Source: an uncultured Lachnoclostridium sp.
GTDB taxonomy: Bacteria; Bacillota; Clostridia; Lachnospirales; Lachnospiraceae
Direction of reading: 5' to 3'
NCBI GenBank assembly: GCA_944381625.1
Contig: CALWLW010000001.1
Location: 186,001 to 250,000 of the forward strand
DNA: 64,000 bases
Of the stretch, positions 4,634 to 35,744 are shown piece after piece. Position 1 is the stretch's first letter, and each line of letters starts with the position of its first letter. The position numbers were made by a program, and so were the translations under genes. The notes beneath the pieces are model-generated. The model made no database searches. It worked only from the letters and a program-made list of their open reading frames with translations, and had not been told where the DNA came from.

Positions 4634-5125
4634 ATGTTAAGACTTGATATAAATCTGGTTTTTACGATTATCAACCTGCTGGTCTGGTATGCGGTGATCC
4701 GGATTTTCCTTTTTAAGAGGGTCAACAAGGTGATCGACCAGAGGGAGCAGGCGATCCAGTCCCGTTATGCGGATGCCAGGAAGCTTCAGGAGGAAGCTGC
4801 CGCAGAGAAAGACAGATACGCGGTTTCCCAGGCGCAGATTGAAGAAGAAAAGACCAGAGTGCTGGACCAGGCAAGAGAGGATGCCAGGACAGAATACAGC
4901 CATATTCTGGAGGATGCACAGAAGAAAGCGGAGCAGATTGTAGAGCACTCCAGGAAAGAAGCTGTGATGGAGAAAGAGAAGATCGTATCCAAAGCGGAAA
5001 AGGAAATCCGTTCGATCATCCTGGATTCAGCAGTGAAATCCATGCAGGCTTCCGGAAACGAAAGCACTCTGTATGATGAATTTTTAGCAAAAGCAGGTGA
5101 GACGGGGCATGGAGAAAATGAATAA
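4634..5125 (+). CDS. atpF: F0F1 ATP synthase subunit b
   Basis: Peripheral-stalk subunit: one N-terminal membrane helix (about residues 6-27, [20 protein letters not shown]) followed by a long charged coiled coil rich in Ala, Glu, Lys and Gln that reaches up to F1. Length 163 aa is typical. The 3' end overlaps the start of the fused delta-alpha gene by about 17 bp, which suggests coupled translation of two stalk components. Confidence 0.95.
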
Positions 5126-28933: not shown

Positions 28934-29839
28934 TTAGAAGATGTCGTTATGGTAGTCATTGGTTTCTTCGCCTGCCGGCTCTTCCGGAATCTCACGCCAC
29001 TGTGCTTCCGGCTGGGGATTGCTGTAGCGCTGTTCGGAAATCTCCCGGTAGAACGCCGCCCTGGAAGCCTCAATGTACGGGTTCAGGATCAGAAGTCCCA
29101 CCAGCAGTAAAATCACGCCCAAGGAAAGACCGGCCAGATTTCCGGTAAGGATACTGGTCGCCATTAAGAACACAAAGCCAAAGGAAATCAGCAGGCTCCA
29201 TCCGAAGAATGAAAATTCCAGGCAGAACAGTTTCCACTTATAGCCTTTCATCATTATCTTCGATTCCCGGAAGGCATCTCTGGCCCGAAGCTCCGGATGC
29301 TCCGCCATAATATAGGGCACGAGCGCATAGCTGTAGGTGGCGATAATGCCGGGAATAAACAAAAGCAGCGACCACAGCGTAATGAACAGTCCCCTCCAGA
29401 ACCACATGCAGAATCCTGCTCCGATCCGTCCCATGTTGGAAAAAATATCGCCTACCCGGGCCTGGCTACCGTCCACCAGATTCAGGTTGAACTGCGCGTA
29501 GCCCAGCGTAACCGCTCCGCCGATAATGATGCAGACCACGGCATAAATCAAAAGTATAACGAGCAGTGTTCCCAAAAAGGCCATCATGGGCATGAAAAAG
29601 TCGCTCTGTACAAACCTTTCCATGACTTCGTTGTCGTACTCTGCCGCGGCGTAGGGGTCATATGTGCCGGTTGAGGACATGTAACTGGTGTCCTGGGTAA
29701 AATAGGACAGATTGATCCAGCTGGCGCCGTACATGCTGCAGCCTAGAAGCCCTGATACAAATCCTGCCAGAACAGCCGTGGGCCAGAAGCCCCGTAAGCT
29801 CTCCCGTCCGATTCTTCGGTAATCTCTTGCGTACATCAT
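28934..29839 (-). CDS. DUF975 family integral membrane protein
   Basis: Starts with the family motif YARDYRRIGRESLRGFWPTAVLAGFVSGLLG and has about six membrane helices, including LIYAVVCIIIGGAVTLGYAQFNLNLVDG and GLFITLWSLLLFIPGIIATYSYAL, then the AEHPELRARDAFRESKIMMKGYKWKLF loop. 301 aa. Function unknown. AGGAGGAG precedes the ATG. It stands alone between a terminator and the nrd genes. Confidence 0.85.
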   Translation of the reverse strand: MMYARDYRRIGRESLRGFWPTAVLAGFVSGLLGCSMYGASWINLSYFTQDTSYMSSTGTYDPYAAAEYDNEVMERFVQSDFFMPMMAFLGTLLVILLIYAVVCIIIGGAVTLGYAQFNLNLVDGSQARVGDIFSNMGRIGAGFCMWFWRGLFITLWSLLLFIPGIIATYSYALVPYIMAEHPELRARDAFRESKIMMKGYKWKLFCLEFSFFGWSLLISFGFVFLMATSILTGNLAGLSLGVILLLVGLLILNPYIEASRAAFYREISEQRYSNPQPEAQWREIPEEPAGEETNDYHNDIF

Positions 29840-29930
29840 AGTTGTTTTCTCCTCCTGAAGAACAAAGTTCTCAGGTGCATTATATCACTAATACAAGTTT
29901 TTTACATCTTAATTTTTTTGGAATATGAAA

Positions 29931-29952
29931 GATGTATGGCTGAACAGTTACA
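29931..29952 (+). repeat. Dispersed 22-nt repeat, copy 1
   Basis: GATGTATGGCTGAACAGTTACA matches the copies at 41223-41245 and 49710-49689 (minus) at about 19 of 22 positions. It lies just after the nrdG stop. Confidence 0.5.
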
Positions 29953-29961
29953 AAATGGTCT

Positions 29962-30498
29962 CTACCATAGATCGTCGTATTCGCTCCGATAGAGGACGAT
30001 CCGGCCTTCCCGGCGGCTCTTTCCCAGGTCAATGACCCGCTGGTTGGAGCTGCCCCGGTACGGGAGCGTCAGATCCCGCTCTGCCTGGATATAGGGGCCG
30101 TCCACCAGGATATCGGTCAGTTCCAGAAGTCTTTTCACATGGCTGTCCTCCATGGACCAGAGATCCTCCAGAAGATACCCGGTATAGACCATCAGATGTT
30201 TTCCCATATTTTTGACTGTTTCCGCCAGGGGAACCAGCGCCTCCGCCTGGGCAAAGGGTTCGCCGCCGGAAAAGGTGACGCCGGAAAGGACGGGATTTTG
30301 GGAAATCTGTTCCAGAATCAGCCCGGTATCCGCCTCTTTTCCTCCCTGGAAATCGTGAGTCTGGGGATTGTGGCAGCCAGGACAGTGGTGGGGACAGCCC
30401 TGGGTAAAGACCACATAGCGAAGACCGGGACCGTCCACGATGGAATCCTGGACGGTCCCGGCGATCCGAAGCGGCTTAGGACAGGGTGTGTTTGACAC
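29962..30498 (-). CDS. nrdG: Anaerobic ribonucleotide reductase activating enzyme
   Basis: Radical SAM activase that puts the glycyl radical on class III RNR. CX3CX2C cluster motif CPHHCPGC is near residue 33, followed by VTFSGGEPF, with a short 178-residue length as in NrdG. I place the start at GTG 30498: AGAGGAG lies eight bases upstream and the next residues lead into LRIAGTVQDSIVDGPGLR, the usual N-terminus. Longer starts lie within the upstream 52-residue gene. It overlaps that gene by 23 bp, so the two are translationally coupled. Confidence 0.93.
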   Translation of the reverse strand: MSNTPCPKPLRIAGTVQDSIVDGPGLRYVVFTQGCPHHCPGCHNPQTHDFQGGKEADTGLILEQISQNPVLSGVTFSGGEPFAQAEALVPLAETVKNMGKHLMVYTGYLLEDLWSMEDSHVKRLLELTDILVDGPYIQAERDLTLPYRGSSNQRVIDLGKSRREGRIVLYRSEYDDLW

Positions 30499-30634
30499 GG
30501 TCCCGCTCCTCTGCACGTTTTGCGTTGTTGAAACGGTCTGTGGTTCCCACCAGGTAACCGGTGATCCTGCGGATCCGGTCAAACTTTACGTTTTCTCCTG
30601 CCATGCCGTTTTCTGCGATAACTCTTCCTGCCAT
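30476..30634 (-). CDS. Stand-alone glycyl-radical domain of class III RNR (NrdD C-terminal piece)
   Basis: A 52-residue protein whose centre reads RIRRITGYLVGTTDRFNNAK followed by a RAEERDRVKH segment. This aligns with the end of canonical NrdD (R-V-C-G-Y-L ... R-P-F-N-x-G-K-x-E-E ... R-V-K-H, from memory), with Gly26 in the radical position. The upstream NrdD lacks this segment. The gene has its own AGGAGG eight bases before the ATG and lies 95 bp after nrdD, overlapping nrdG. It presumably docks on NrdD and carries the radical, somewhat as YfiD does for pyruvate formate-lyase. The split is visible; the partnership is inferred. Confidence 0.78.
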   Translation of the reverse strand: MAGRVIAENGMAGENVKFDRIRRITGYLVGTTDRFNNAKRAEERDRVKHTLS

Positions 30635-30728
30635 AAATATTACCTCCTGATTGTTGTGAAATGATAGGCTCCCGGGACATCCAGCCCCGTTCCTCTGAAT
30701 TTATCATCTGCCGGATGACGGCTCTGGA

Positions 30729-33044
30729 CTAATGGTTGGCGTCCAGATAAACCGGTACGTCCGGATATTTTTTGCGAAGCTCGTTCAGCCGTTCCAAAGA
30801 TACGGCCTCTCCTTCTCTCCTGCCGCAGCGGGGGCACACGTCGTCGATGACGCCGGTAAAGCCGCACACAGGATCCCGATCTACCGGATGGTTTACGGAA
30901 CCGTAGCCTACGCCGTTCTCTTTCATGCAGCGGATCACCGCTTCGAAGGCCTCCGGGTTCTTGGCGGTATCTCCGTCCAGCTCCACATAGCTGATATGCC
31001 CTGCGTTGGTCAGGGCGTGATACGGTCCCTCGATCTGGATCTTTTCAAATGCGCTGATGGGATAATACACCGGTACATGGAAGGAGTTTGTGTAGTATTC
31101 CCGATCCGTCACGCCGGGGATTTTGCCGTAGCGTTTCTGGTCCATTCGGACAAATCTTCCGGAAAGCCCTTCCGCGGGAGTGGCCAGCAGCGTGAAATTC
31201 AGTCCCGTCTCTTCAGATTTTTCATCCAGATATTTCCTCATATGGGAGATAATCTCATATCCCAGCTTCCGGCTCTCTTCACTCTCACCGTGATGATGTC
31301 CGGTCAGAGCCTTCAGGGTCTCAGCCAACCCGATAAAGCCCACGCTCAGGGTGCCGTTTTTCAGGATCTCGCCCACCTGATCGTCGATGCCCAGATGGTC
31401 GGAATCAATCCAGATTCCCTGCCCCATCAGGAACGGATAATTTTTCACGGTCTTCTTCTTCTGGATCTCGAACCGGTGCAGCAGCTGACGGCAGCAGAGC
31501 GCCATGCGCTTGTCCAGGTTTTTGTAGAAGGCGTCCAGATCCCCTTTCGCCTGGATGCCCAGACGGGGAAGGTTGATGGACGTAAAACTCAGGTTGCCTC
31601 TTCCGCAGGTCACTTCCCTGGTGGGATCGTAATGGTTCCCCATGACACGGGTACGGCATCCCATGTAGGCTACCTCCGTGTTATAATCCCCTGCTTTGTA
31701 ATACTGCAGGTTGAACGGCGCGTCCAGGAAGCTGAAGTTGGGGAACAGCCTCTTGGCGGACACTTTGATCGCCATACGGAACAGGTCGTAATTGGGATCG
31801 CCCGGATTGTAGTTGATCCCTTCTTTTACCTTGAAGATCTGTACGGGGAAGATGGCCGTCTCGCCGTTTCCAAGCCCTGCGTCCGTCACTTTCAAAAGAT
31901 TGATTATGGCCATGCGCGCCTCCGGCGTGGTACAGGTTCCGTAGTTGATGGAACTGAACGGCACCTGGGCGCCCGCCCGGGAATTCATGGTATTCAGGTT
32001 ATGGATCAGTGATTCCATGGCCTGATAAGTAGCCATATCCGTCTTTCTTGTGGCGATCTGCACGGAAGTCCTGTGGCATCTGCGGATATCTGCCTCGTCC
32101 GGCTGAAGACCCAGCATCTGCCCGCCCTCTCCCAGCATCCAGCTCACCAGATTCTCTCCGTAGGCATCCACATTCCCCATATGGATCCGTTCCGGCATGG
32201 CGGCTTTAAGCGCCACGCGGAAGGATTCGTCCAGAGCCTTCTCGCAGTCGTATTCCAGCCAGAAATACCGCTGTACCGCATCGTAGTATTCTTTCCTGTA
32301 TGTACACGCCACGCCTTCTGCCATGGCATAATCAAAATTCGGCACCGACTGTCCGCCGTGCATCTCGTTCTGGTTCGCCTGGATGGCGATGCAGGCCAGA
32401 GCCGCATAGCTCTGGATGGACTTGGGCTGGCGGATGTATCCGTGTCCGGTGGAGAATCCGTCGTGGAACAGCTTCAGCAGGTCAATCTGGCAGCAGGTCT
32501 CCGTCAGCATGTAGAAGTCTTTGTCGTGGATATGGATGTCGCCGTTGATATGGGCCGCCGCAATATCCTTGGGCAGGATATAGTTGTCCACAAAATAATT
32601 GGCCCCTTCGGACCCGTATTTCAGCATCGTCCCCATGGACGTGTCAGCGTCGATATTGGCGTTTTCCCGCTTGATGTCCGCGTCTGCGGCGCTGGTGAAG
32701 GTCAGCTCCCGGTAAATCTTTACCAGGTCAGCCTCTGTCTTGCGCAGCTTGGTGTGCTCTTCCCGGTACAGGATATAGGCTTTCGCTGTCCTGGCAAATC
32801 CGTTCTGGATCAGTTTCTCCTCCACAAGATCCTGGATCTGCTCCACGTTAGGCGTATCCCCGTCCGGGATCGCCTCCACCACCTCGTCAACCAGCTCTTC
32901 AAACTGATAAGGCGAGATCGCCTCCATGCGGGCGGCTTCATTCGCTTTACGGATCGCGTCTCTGATTTTTTTCACATCGAACGGCACCGGAGTTCCGTTT
33001 CTTTTTTTAATCATCTCCGGGCACGCGATGGCAGTTCCCCTCAT
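30729..33044 (-). CDS. nrdD: Anaerobic ribonucleoside-triphosphate reductase, large part
   Basis: Makes dNTPs from NTPs without oxygen. An N-terminal ATP-cone (residues 12-100, KKRNGTPVPFDVKKIRDAIRKA) precedes the ten-stranded barrel. The thiyl-radical Cys is probably in FSSINYGTCTT, and the C-terminal zinc site is at DPVCGFTG ... CPRCGRREG. In usual NrdD the zinc site is followed by RVCGYL with the radical Gly; here the chain ends instead with LERLNELRKKYPDVPVYLDANH and a clear TAG. The glycyl part is in the next gene. 771 aa. The start may be the ATG at 33044 or the Met before IKKRNG. Confidence 0.93.
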   Translation of the reverse strand: MRGTAIACPEMIKKRNGTPVPFDVKKIRDAIRKANEAARMEAISPYQFEELVDEVVEAIPDGDTPNVEQIQDLVEEKLIQNGFARTAKAYILYREEHTKLRKTEADLVKIYRELTFTSAADADIKRENANIDADTSMGTMLKYGSEGANYFVDNYILPKDIAAAHINGDIHIHDKDFYMLTETCCQIDLLKLFHDGFSTGHGYIRQPKSIQSYAALACIAIQANQNEMHGGQSVPNFDYAMAEGVACTYRKEYYDAVQRYFWLEYDCEKALDESFRVALKAAMPERIHMGNVDAYGENLVSWMLGEGGQMLGLQPDEADIRRCHRTSVQIATRKTDMATYQAMESLIHNLNTMNSRAGAQVPFSSINYGTCTTPEARMAIINLLKVTDAGLGNGETAIFPVQIFKVKEGINYNPGDPNYDLFRMAIKVSAKRLFPNFSFLDAPFNLQYYKAGDYNTEVAYMGCRTRVMGNHYDPTREVTCGRGNLSFTSINLPRLGIQAKGDLDAFYKNLDKRMALCCRQLLHRFEIQKKKTVKNYPFLMGQGIWIDSDHLGIDDQVGEILKNGTLSVGFIGLAETLKALTGHHHGESEESRKLGYEIISHMRKYLDEKSEETGLNFTLLATPAEGLSGRFVRMDQKRYGKIPGVTDREYYTNSFHVPVYYPISAFEKIQIEGPYHALTNAGHISYVELDGDTAKNPEAFEAVIRCMKENGVGYGSVNHPVDRDPVCGFTGVIDDVCPRCGRREGEAVSLERLNELRKKYPDVPVYLDANH

Positions 33045-33088
33045 AACTTTCCCTCCAAATCTATATCTGGTGCTTCATATCATGTCTT

Positions 33089-33104
33089 GCGCTAAATATA
33101 GTAC
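33089..33104 (-). promoter_or_regulatory. Possible NrdR box upstream of nrdD
   Basis: On the minus strand GTACTATATTTAGCGC resembles the NrdR consensus ACACWATATATWGTGT in its core (CTATATTTAG). Only one clear copy is seen, whereas NrdR usually uses two, so this is tentative. Confidence 0.3.
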
Positions 33105-33140
33105 CACCAATGGAGGAAAGATGCAATAGAAAAATTCACG

Positions 33141-33305
33141 ATTACAGTTCACTCGTCTGCCAGAATCCGTCGGATGTCGTGCTCGCACGAACAGACGACG
33201 GACTCTGAGCAGACGAAGGGAGCGCCTGGCTATGAGCAAAGGGAGCTGCAAAGCAGCGGGAAGCGCGAAAGCGCGGCTTTGCGAATGGCGCGGGTGAACT
33301 GTAAT
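33141..33305. repeat. 165-bp element with 12-bp terminal inverted repeats
   Basis: ATTACAGTTCAC (33141-33152) and its exact reverse complement (33294-33305) bound a region full of short stems (TCGTGCTCGCACGA, GCTGCAAAGCAGC, GCGCGAAAGCGC). No gene is credible inside. It looks like a MITE or a structured intergenic repeat lying between nrdD and yitT. Confidence 0.6.
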
Positions 33306-33316
33306 ACTTTGCCTTT

Positions 33317-34183
33317 TCAAAGCACGTCGGCGAACAGGTCTTTATACCCTTCTCCATAGATCTCGCTGGCGCTGGTCACGATCATAAAGGCGGAAGGATC
33401 CTCTGTTTTCACGATTTCTTCCACCTGGGGACCCTGGGGACCGTGGACCGCGCAGAAGACAATTTCTTTTTCTTTTCCGGTGAAGCCGCCTTTTCCCTGC
33501 AGGTAAGTGACGCCGGCCTCAAGGTTCTGCAGCAGACGGTTCCCGATTTCCCTTGGCCTTTCCGTGATAATGTAGAACATCCTGGCTTCGTCGCCGCCAT
33601 AGAGCACATAGTTCAATGTTCTGCCGGACACGACCACGGTAATCAGAGCGTACAGGGCCACGTTCAGATCCCGGAAGATGAGGCCGGACAGGGACGCGAT
33701 CACCAGGTCCGTACACAGGAACAAAAAGCCGGTCTTCAGATGGCGGTAATGCCTGCGCAGAAGCTTGATGATAATATCCATGCCGCCGGTGGTGGCTCCC
33801 GCTTTAAAAGCCAGGCCGATCCCGCAGGCGATCAGGACGCCGCCGGACAGGCCGGCCAGAAGCGGATCAGTGGTCACGGGGCCTTTCCCGGACAGGATGT
33901 CCGTGACCAGGGAGGACAGAGCTACCACATAGGCGGTCTTCAGGATGAAGCGTCCGCCGAATTTCCAGGCGCCCAGGGCCAGGATGGGGATGTTCAGCAG
34001 AAAGAGGATCGTCCCGGTGCCGATGCCGGTCAGATAGCTTAAGATCACCGAGATGCCGGTCATCCCGCCGGGAGCCAGGCGGTTGGGATCCAGGAACAGG
34101 CTGACGCCCGCTCCGTAGATGACAGACGCCGCGCTCAGCGCTGTGAATCTTCCAGCTGCCTTTTTCCATGCTCTTTGTACCAT
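33317..34183 (-). CDS. YitT family membrane protein
   Basis: Five to six membrane helices (residues 1-200) with the family's GLSLFLDPNRLAPGGMTGISVILSYLTGI-type start and FKAGATTGGMDIIIKLL motif, then a cytoplasmic DUF2179 domain (about 205-288, FYIITERPREIGNRLLQNLEAGVTYLQGKGGFTGKEKEIVFC). 288 aa. Role unknown. GGGAGG lies six bases before the ATG. It follows miaB on the same strand. Confidence 0.9.
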   Translation of the reverse strand: MVQRAWKKAAGRFTALSAASVIYGAGVSLFLDPNRLAPGGMTGISVILSYLTGIGTGTILFLLNIPILALGAWKFGGRFILKTAYVVALSSLVTDILSGKGPVTTDPLLAGLSGGVLIACGIGLAFKAGATTGGMDIIIKLLRRHYRHLKTGFLFLCTDLVIASLSGLIFRDLNVALYALITVVVSGRTLNYVLYGGDEARMFYIITERPREIGNRLLQNLEAGVTYLQGKGGFTGKEKEIVFCAVHGPQGPQVEEIVKTEDPSAFMIVTSASEIYGEGYKDLFADVL

Positions 34184-34238
34184 GTTCGACCTCCCTGCGT
34201 GCCTGCTCCCGGGACTGTCCGGCCGGCGTCCCGTATGC

Positions 34239-35744
34239 TTATACCGGGGTGTCCGGACCGTCCAGCAGGCTTCCCATATAATAAAATCCCCTGCATTCGT
34301 CCAGCCTGACGTTCACGATCTGCCCGATCAGGCTCTCCGGGGCGCAAAAATGCACCACATGGTTGTTGCTCAGCCGTCCGGTCACATACCCTTCCATCTG
34401 GCTGTTTTTCTCTTCCACCAGCACGCTCTGACAGGAGCCGGTGAACCGTTCCGCCATCTCCTTTGAGATCTCCTGCACTTCTTTTAAAAGCCGGTCAAAA
34501 CGGTCCTTCACCACATCCTCCGGGACCTGATCCTCCATGGCCGCGGCAGGGGTTCCGGTCCGCTTGCTGTAAATAAACGTAAAGGCGCTGTCGTACCGCA
34601 CCCGGCGCACCACATCCAGGGTCTCCTGAAAGTCTTCTTCTGTCTCTCCCGGAAATCCCACGATAATATCGGTGGTCAGGGCGATATCCGGGACTGCCGC
34701 CCGTATCCGCTCCGCCAGCGCCAGGTACTGCTCCTTGGTATATCTCCGGTTCATGATTTTCAGGATCCGGGAACTGCCCGACTGCAGGGGCAGATGCAGA
34801 TGGCGGCAGATCTTCTCCGATTCTGCCATCACCCGGATCAGATCGTCGGACAGATCTTTGGGATGCGACGTCATGAAACGGATTCTCTCAAGGCCGTCGA
34901 TTTTGACCGCTTCCCGGAGCAATCCGGCAAAGGACATGGGGGTGTCCAGATTTTTTCCGTAAGAGTTCACATTCTGCCCCAGCAGCATGACCTCTTTCAC
35001 GCCGTCATCCACCAGATGCCGGATCTCCTTTAAGATCTCCTCCGGTTCCCGGCTGCGTTCCCGTCCCCGCACATAGGGCACAATGCAGTAGCTGCAGAAA
35101 TTATTGCAGCCGAACATGATGTTCACGCCCGATTTAAACGGGTACTTCCGTTCCACCGGCAGATCCTCCACGATCTGATCCGTATCTTTCCAGATATCGA
35201 TGATCGTCCGGTCTGATTCCTGCATGGCCGCAAGAAGTTCCGCAAATTTAAAAATATTGTGGGTGCCGAAGATCAGGTCCACGAAAGAATAGCTTTTTTT
35301 CAGCTTTTCCACCACGTCCGGCTCCTGCATCATACAGCCACAGAGAGCGATCTTCATATGCGGGTTTTTCTTTTTGTATCCGTGAAGCACGCCCAGGCGG
35401 CCGTAGACCCTCAGATTGGCGTTTTCCCGCACCGTGCAGGTATTGTAGATGACAAAATCCGCTTCCTCGCTGTCCGTCTCCTCATATCCGGCTTCCTTTA
35501 AGATGCCCAGAAGTTTCTCAGAATCCCTGGCGTTCATCTGACACCCGAAGGTGGTCACATGGCAGGTCAGTGGTCTTCCCAGTTCTTCTTCTTTCTCTGC
35601 GGTCCATGCCCTGGCCCTTTTCAGGAAATAATACTGACGCAGGGGTTCCTGTAAAGGCGCCGGCACGGACAGATCCGCGCCCTGGATCTCTTCATGCATA
35701 TTTATATCTGTATTGGTAGTATTCACGGTTTTTGATCCTTTCAT
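34239..35744 (-). CDS. miaB: tRNA-2-methylthio-N6-dimethylallyladenosine synthase
   Basis: Radical SAM methylthiotransferase that modifies A37 of tRNAs reading UNN codons. The N-terminal UPF0004 domain carries three cluster cysteines (TFGCQMN, YNTCTVRE, CGCMMQ). The radical SAM cluster is in GCNNFCSYCIVPYVRGRE. A TRAM domain closes the protein (ERFTGSCQSVLVEEKNSQ onward). The first ATG (35744) has a weak site; a GTG at 35726 has AAAGGA at nine bases and is a good alternative start. 501 aa with a 60-residue N-terminal extension common in clostridia. Confidence 0.95.
   Translation of the reverse strand: MKGSKTVNTTNTDINMHEEIQGADLSVPAPLQEPLRQYYFLKRARAWTAEKEEELGRPLTCHVTTFGCQMNARDSEKLLGILKEAGYEETDSEEADFVIYNTCTVRENANLRVYGRLGVLHGYKKKNPHMKIALCGCMMQEPDVVEKLKKSYSFVDLIFGTHNIFKFAELLAAMQESDRTIIDIWKDTDQIVEDLPVERKYPFKSGVNIMFGCNNFCSYCIVPYVRGRERSREPEEILKEIRHLVDDGVKEVMLLGQNVNSYGKNLDTPMSFAGLLREAVKIDGLERIRFMTSHPKDLSDDLIRVMAESEKICRHLHLPLQSGSSRILKIMNRRYTKEQYLALAERIRAAVPDIALTTDIIVGFPGETEEDFQETLDVVRRVRYDSAFTFIYSKRTGTPAAAMEDQVPEDVVKDRFDRLLKEVQEISKEMAERFTGSCQSVLVEEKNSQMEGYVTGRLSNNHVVHFCAPESLIGQIVNVRLDECRGFYYMGSLLDGPDTPV

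Follow-up and report, generated by a model that had tools for sequence, protein, structure and literature searches.

The window analysed here, 64,000 nucleotides (nt) of contig CALWLW010000001.1 from an uncultured Lachnoclostridium sp., carries on its minus strand the genes of a class III (anaerobic) ribonucleotide reductase (RNR), an essential enzyme, in an arrangement that, to judge from the sequence, is very probably a split form with the radical glycine on a separate 52-residue subunit. The gene order on that strand is nrdD, a 94-nt gap, a 52-aa open reading frame (ORF; the tail) and nrdG (Table 1). The catalytic chain is an NrdD, not a B12-dependent NrdJ, and has the class III features of an ATP-cone, an NRDD barrel and a finger-loop cysteine (in GCRT). 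As a first-pass annotation of this DNA had proposed, it ends in a clean TAG stop after the zinc-binding region, and RxxGYL is absent from its 771 residues; the glycyl-radical loop is not on the same polypeptide. The same annotation had given the downstream ORF an AGGAGG of its own, which is present, and a spacing of 95 nt, which is one too many. No terminator-like site was found within the gap, whose sequence and length differ across the genus. The product of nrdG scores 143.9 bits against TIGR02491 (cut-off 126.1), and an activase is thus encoded near nrdD; with its putative GTG start the gene overlaps the tail gene by 23 nt, an AGGAG at 30506-30510 lying inside the tail coding sequence. No Rfam family was found at 29000-34500 of the window.

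Table 1. Features of the nrdD-tail-nrdG locus (window positions)
Feature	Position	Strand	Remarks
nrdD, tail-less class III RNR catalytic subunit, 771 aa	30729..33044	-	ends PVYLDANH + TAG
NrdD parts: ATP-cone, barrel with finger-loop Cys463, Zn ribbon Cys727/737/740, extra 27-aa C-terminus			cysteine roles via characterised NrdDs
NrdD residues 745-771, C-terminal extension in the place of the glycyl-radical loop	30732..30812	-	includes GEAVSLERLNEL
nrdD-tail intergenic stretch, 94 nt	30635..30728	-	Shine-Dalgarno AGGAGG at 30643-30648
Predicted standalone glycyl-radical tail subunit of NrdD, 52 aa	30476..30634	-	
Gly26 codon (GGT), predicted radical glycine	30557..30559	-	in RRITGYL
nrdG activase	29962..30498	-	probable GTG start at 30498, inferred from sequence

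The two ORFs divide a single protein family between them. Of the 562 positions of Pfam NRDD, NrdD covers 1-531 (631.3 bits) and the 52-aa ORF only the end, 531-562 (33.5 bits, E 2.5e-8), so that the loop is supplied by the locus; a genome-wide NRDD search returns the halves as 1-531 and 532-562, and the NCBIfam NrdD models are divided in the same way. No other Pfam family matched the 52-aa ORF up to E 0.1, including PF01228 (Gly_radical), the PFL-type domain that YfiD carries. Scans of Pfam, NCBIfam and PHROGs turned up no dedicated family for the standalone tail; its matches are confined to the ends of NrdD models, full or C-terminal. NrdD residues 663-731 show a weak, sub-threshold Gly_radical match (17.8 bits, cut-off 22.2; model positions 5-71 of 106), and no glycyl-radical motif was found elsewhere in that chain. 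In alignment with Prevotella copri NrdD (8p23), the window NrdD extends as far as residue 706 of the chain, and 707-738 are matched by residues 18-49 of the tail, which places the break at 706/707, right after the Zn ribbon, with some 27 extra residues on NrdD and 17 on the tail. Gly26 falls on chain residue 715, and is equated, via a 4-residue offset, with the Gly711 given in the available part of PMC11226230. The earlier alignment of the small protein with the missing C-terminus, Gly26 in the radical position, is therefore upheld. The finger-loop GCRT is present in 125 of 125 tail-less NrdD ORFs longer than 650 aa (duplicates included, with L212 cut by its contig; 137 listed less 12 full-length NrdDs with divergent tails that the profile missed). 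The glycine motif is likewise kept in 201 of 201 standalone tail ORFs (103 distinct cores), a conservation that is partly by construction because the tails were found with a profile of that region.

The pair recurs throughout the genus. In all 17 genomes searched (G000-G016) neighbouring ORFs match NRDD to positions 531-536 and from positions 530-533, and stop codons separate them in every one, including five listed as a single open frame by a search that ignores stops. Across the window and its 16 relatives NrdD terminates at D[AP]NH plus a stop codon, the tail starts from an ATG of its own, the intervening gap ranges from 25 to 168 nt, and frame and stop codon vary. Since 17 of 17 genomes contain the pair it is not due to chance, and since their gaps and frames differ, sequencing error, frameshift, read-through and bypass were rejected as explanations of the split. 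The tail is under evident constraint: FDRIRRITGYLVGT is invariant across 12 tails, and the 66 pairwise comparisons of these give a mean pN (nonsynonymous differences) of 0.087 against a mean pS (synonymous differences) of 0.671, a pN/pS of ~0.13, one relative having an identical tail protein despite a pS of 0.59. Among 24 genomes from other genera of the family and order, 19 have NRDD matches, and these reach position 560-562.

Loss of the attached tail and presence of a standalone one go together in two families. Of 46 genomes of family f127, 44 have a match and 42 have a tail-less NrdD; a standalone tail was found in 41 of the 42, and the remaining one (G788) was rejected as an exception, its match ending at base 5070 of a 5072-base contig. 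The two f127 genomes with full-length NrdD only have no standalone tail. In family f79 (55 genomes, setting aside five with NrdD broken over contigs, one tail without NrdD in a 59% complete genome, and one without a match) the tail is present in 10 of 10 genomes with tail-less NrdD versus 4 of 38 with full-length NrdD only. Pooled, this amounts to 51 of 51 evaluable tail-less genomes versus 4 of 40 full-length-only genomes; Fisher p is 0.001 for f127 and 1.5e-7 for f79, both uncorrected for kinship. A full-length NrdD is also present in five of the ten split f79 genomes and in G568 of f127.

Among 41 split genomes searched, PF02867 (class I/II large subunit) was found in seven; a further NrdD match is present in 13 of the 34 without it and absent from 21. 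These 21, which are 95-100% complete and in three cases assembled in one contig, lack matches to PF02867, to TIGR02505 (B12-dependent RTPR) and to full-length NRDD. Tail-less NrdD plus tail is the only RNR detected in them by the three models, an undetected RNR or salvage being possible, and the pair presumably works because it is the only one detected there. Conservation, complementarity, gene order and these genomes support the first-pass proposal of a separately encoded subunit bearing the radical glycine.

The split is not confined to the genus. From a tail-alignment scan of genome contigs (84,980 species) the best 80 loci were kept, a best-matching set and not a measure of prevalence; 79 of them contain a standalone short tail ORF (L097 is fused), and 73 have a tail-less NrdD upstream, three as contig-cut pieces (L056, L096, L113), with -44 to 205 nt between nrdD and the first tail. 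Their titles include Lachnoclostridium sp. An196, Catenibacillus scindens, Coprococcus catus, Intestinimonas butyriciproducens and many Bacilli metagenome-assembled genomes. The tail is followed within 400 nt by the QGC..C motif of NrdG in 118 of the 122 cases, counting duplicates, where nrdD shares its strand. Tail matches were found in 124 of 391 class genomes and 123 of 299 phylum genomes, again samples and not prevalences; fused and standalone tails are present in both, the fused being commoner in each. One locus (L084:2715-3141) has two tandem tail genes after a tail-less NrdD, each with its own start and Shine-Dalgarno sequence. Short tails also occur in Gammaproteobacteria (Anaerobiospirillum, Succinivibrionaceae; L072, L075, L088), where the flanks, extending up to 3 kb each way, contain no NrdD.

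Three arrangements were distinguished in 50 genomes of the class and phylum samples with a tail match in an open frame of fewer than 300 codons (plus G672, with 370; G341, with 367, was omitted), for which the NRDD search and, except for G568, the tail loci were read; the broken or contig-cut G123, G329, G333 and G082 were not counted. In the first (18 of 50) the halves are adjacent, as in the window, with a contig break between them in G371. In the second (8 of 50) the tail of a tail-less NrdD lies elsewhere, on another contig in G288, G302, G493, G645, G691, G455 and G568, and ~429 kb from nrdD in the single-contig genome G621; the nrdG motif follows the tail in L153-L156 and L214, from the family of G621. 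Two of the NrdD C-termini here stop at the glycine or shortly before it (VEFERIHRITE in G493, EEHFERIPRL in G288). In the third (20 of 50) a standalone tail accompanies a full-length NrdD, directly downstream in G351, G387, G372, G133 and G267 and elsewhere in the others. These last tails are mostly of 85-112 aa (the ~90-aa form) and have an additional N-terminal domain, which AlphaFold2 (AF2) modelled for one ~90-aa tail as a moderate beta-alpha-beta-beta fold (pLDDT ~80 there, pTM 0.43) for which the PDB gave no significant match (best E 0.084). In L163:2876-3739 (G695) and L171 (G672) a tail of this form is fused with NrdG in one ORF, with a full-length NrdD elsewhere. By analogy, the ~90-aa tails are apparent YfiD-type spare parts for full-length NrdD.

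Tails of both the short and ~90-aa forms are also encoded in DNA classed as viral. Thirty-nine IMG/VR contigs have a tail match, 37 with a standalone ORF and none fused to a whole NrdD; L241, which also contains part of the Zn ribbon, probably represents a fragment of NrdD, and in L271 the tail profile found no ORF. A piece of NrdD is nearby in only one of the 39 (L233), and contigs so labelled may contain host DNA. Among phage records 14 have a tail match and four the longer form. The tails of L123, L124 (G319), L111 and L162 (G476) lie amid phage-like genes, as judged from neighbouring ORFs read without family search, and those of L123 and L124 are seen again in the viral contigs L238 and L268; by analogy with T4 Y06I for PFL, all four are possible phage-borne RNR tails. 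Phages probably carry the NrdD-type tail as an apparent spare. In viral contigs L247 and L248 the tail ORFs, of 162 and 198 aa, have far longer N-termini and do not resemble the ~90-aa form. In C. difficile, NrdD is full-length both on a plasmid and in phage AR1086-1, and the f127 tail gave 25 matches in plasmid records, none over 80% of the tail.

The history of the split was approached by building an NrdD tree (LG+G4, quick search, without the tail region) on the 109 rows left of 181 after filtering at 86% identity within each label. The tree requires a minimum of 11 switches between the split and fused states, a count that does not separate gain from loss, and the deep joins are unsure because long branches meet near the root. 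The window NrdD falls in a starred clade with 31 split and two fused rows, 33 in all. In its C-terminus GEAVSLERLNEL occupies the place of VKFERIRRIT of fused NrdDs and may be its decayed remnant: 57 of 78 distinct NrdD C-termini resemble VKFERIRRIT above shuffles at p<0.05 (p 0.008 for the window), among related rows from which C-termini under 18 aa, including L172 and L173, were dropped and in which the full-length L007 was included in error. Because such C-termini exist, and because full-length NrdDs accompanied by a standalone tail exist as well, the order suggested is tail duplication first and loss of the attached copy second.

Some observations weigh against the split enzyme proposed here. 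An AF2 model of NrdD plus tail from L043, one stop being read through, is moderate (pLDDT 77.3, pTM 0.74), and its glycine loop, below pLDDT 50, gives no support to docking. Foldseek ranked P. copri NrdD first for this model. The window genome also encodes a B12-dependent (class II) RNR, and 13 of the 17 genus genomes carry a second, full-length NrdD of another type. The other four (G000, G006, G012 and G014), which are the window genome and the three congeners searched with TIGR02505, have an RTPR, and since RTPR or a second NrdD is present, the genus need not depend on the split enzyme alone for deoxynucleoside triphosphates. The RTPR at G000:C10:75857-77848 (L039), outside the window, has ~95 initial residues that match the start of NrdD models, as expected of an ATP-cone. 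Also outside the window, G000:C1:32146-32463 (L003) belongs to a YjjI-type glycyl radical enzyme of 514 aa.

Other explanations appear much less probable. It is very unlikely that the tail serves for repair alone and that tail-less NrdD works by another chemistry without a glycyl radical; a standalone tail does stand beside full-length NrdD in the 20 genomes of the third arrangement, but the tail-less chains retain the finger-loop GCRT and NrdG, and the tail is kept in every evaluable tail-less genome of the two families. Equally improbable is a YfiD-like tail that serves PFL or the YjjI-type enzyme encoded in the window genome: YfiD serves PFL in such a way (PMC8683613, in its available part), but the tail here matches NRDD and not Gly_radical, its gene lies between nrdD and nrdG, and its presence tracks loss of NrdD's own tail. 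Decay of nrdD, with the tail ORF as debris, is hardly credible even with a class II RNR in the same genome, and the pseudogene was rejected, since both halves are conserved, the pN/pS of the tail is low, no RNR besides the pair was detected in 21 other genomes, and tail and tail-less NrdD co-occur. That frameshifting, read-through of the stop or ribosomal bypass joins the ORFs into an ordinary NrdD in the cell is almost certainly wrong, for although 19 loci have both ORFs in one frame with one or two stops between, gap, frame and stop codon vary over the genus, each tail there has its own ATG, and in the second arrangement the tail is on another contig or far away.

In the split enzyme as proposed, the products of nrdD, the tail gene and nrdG would be made together, NrdD giving the ATP-cone, barrel, finger-loop cysteine and Zn ribbon, and the tail the glycyl-radical loop and C-terminal helix. 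The tail would dock at the site of the covalent C-terminus in other NrdDs, NrdG would place the radical on Gly26, and this would reach Cys463 of the finger loop for nucleotide reduction. In class III RNR the glycyl radical domain flips out for activation by NrdG and then returns, according to the available text of PMC12662201; a separate tail would do likewise without a covalent tether. Both docking and detachability are inferred. A probable benefit would be that a 52-residue tail cut by oxygen could be swapped without remaking the 771-residue subunit. Tentatively, and with the balance slightly against it, the tail may be a replaceable radical cartridge: a spare part, also carried by phages, that arose against oxygen cleavage, after which NrdD lost its own tail in many lineages and became dependent on the spare, which in some travels or is fused with the activase. 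On the split-enzyme reading, class III RNR in several Firmicutes lineages keeps its radical-bearing part as a subunit of its own, and these lineages offer a natural system for asking how NrdG recognises the radical loop, whether the radical subunit is exchangeable, and whether glycyl-radical enzymes other than PFL have spare parts.

No split NrdD or NrdD spare part was found in the literature searched, available in part and with most subscription papers and preprints outside its scope; the closest precedents are NrdJa/NrdJb and YfiD/Y06I. Canonical class III RNR, represented by P. copri NrdD (8p23), shares the ATP-cone, barrel, finger-loop cysteine, Zn ribbon, loop sequence and NrdG neighbour, and differs in that the glycyl-radical loop is here a separate polypeptide. 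Split class II NrdJa/NrdJb, which the available text of a 2015 paper (PMC4520616) describes as the sole split RNR found in a non-viral organism, likewise takes a C-terminal functional part from a neighbouring gene of one operon, but it is a B12 enzyme split in another way, and NrdJb carries reducing cysteines and not the radical (PMC4520616, PMC5704485). YfiD/GrcA and phage T4 Y06I are small glycyl-radical-domain proteins that can replace an enzyme C-terminus, one of them phage-encoded; as far as the available text goes, they were validated for PFL only, other glycyl radical enzymes being left as speculation (Andorfer et al. 2021, PMC8683613). YfiD repairs a full-length PFL (PMC8683613), whereas the tail here is of NrdD type and apparently obligate. 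Since the NRDD search found no full-length NrdD in the window genome, the tail looks like an obligate subunit in this lineage, and the first-pass comparison with a dedicated YfiD-style partner fits the window tail less well than the ~90-aa tails beside full-length NrdDs, which are the closer YfiD analogue.

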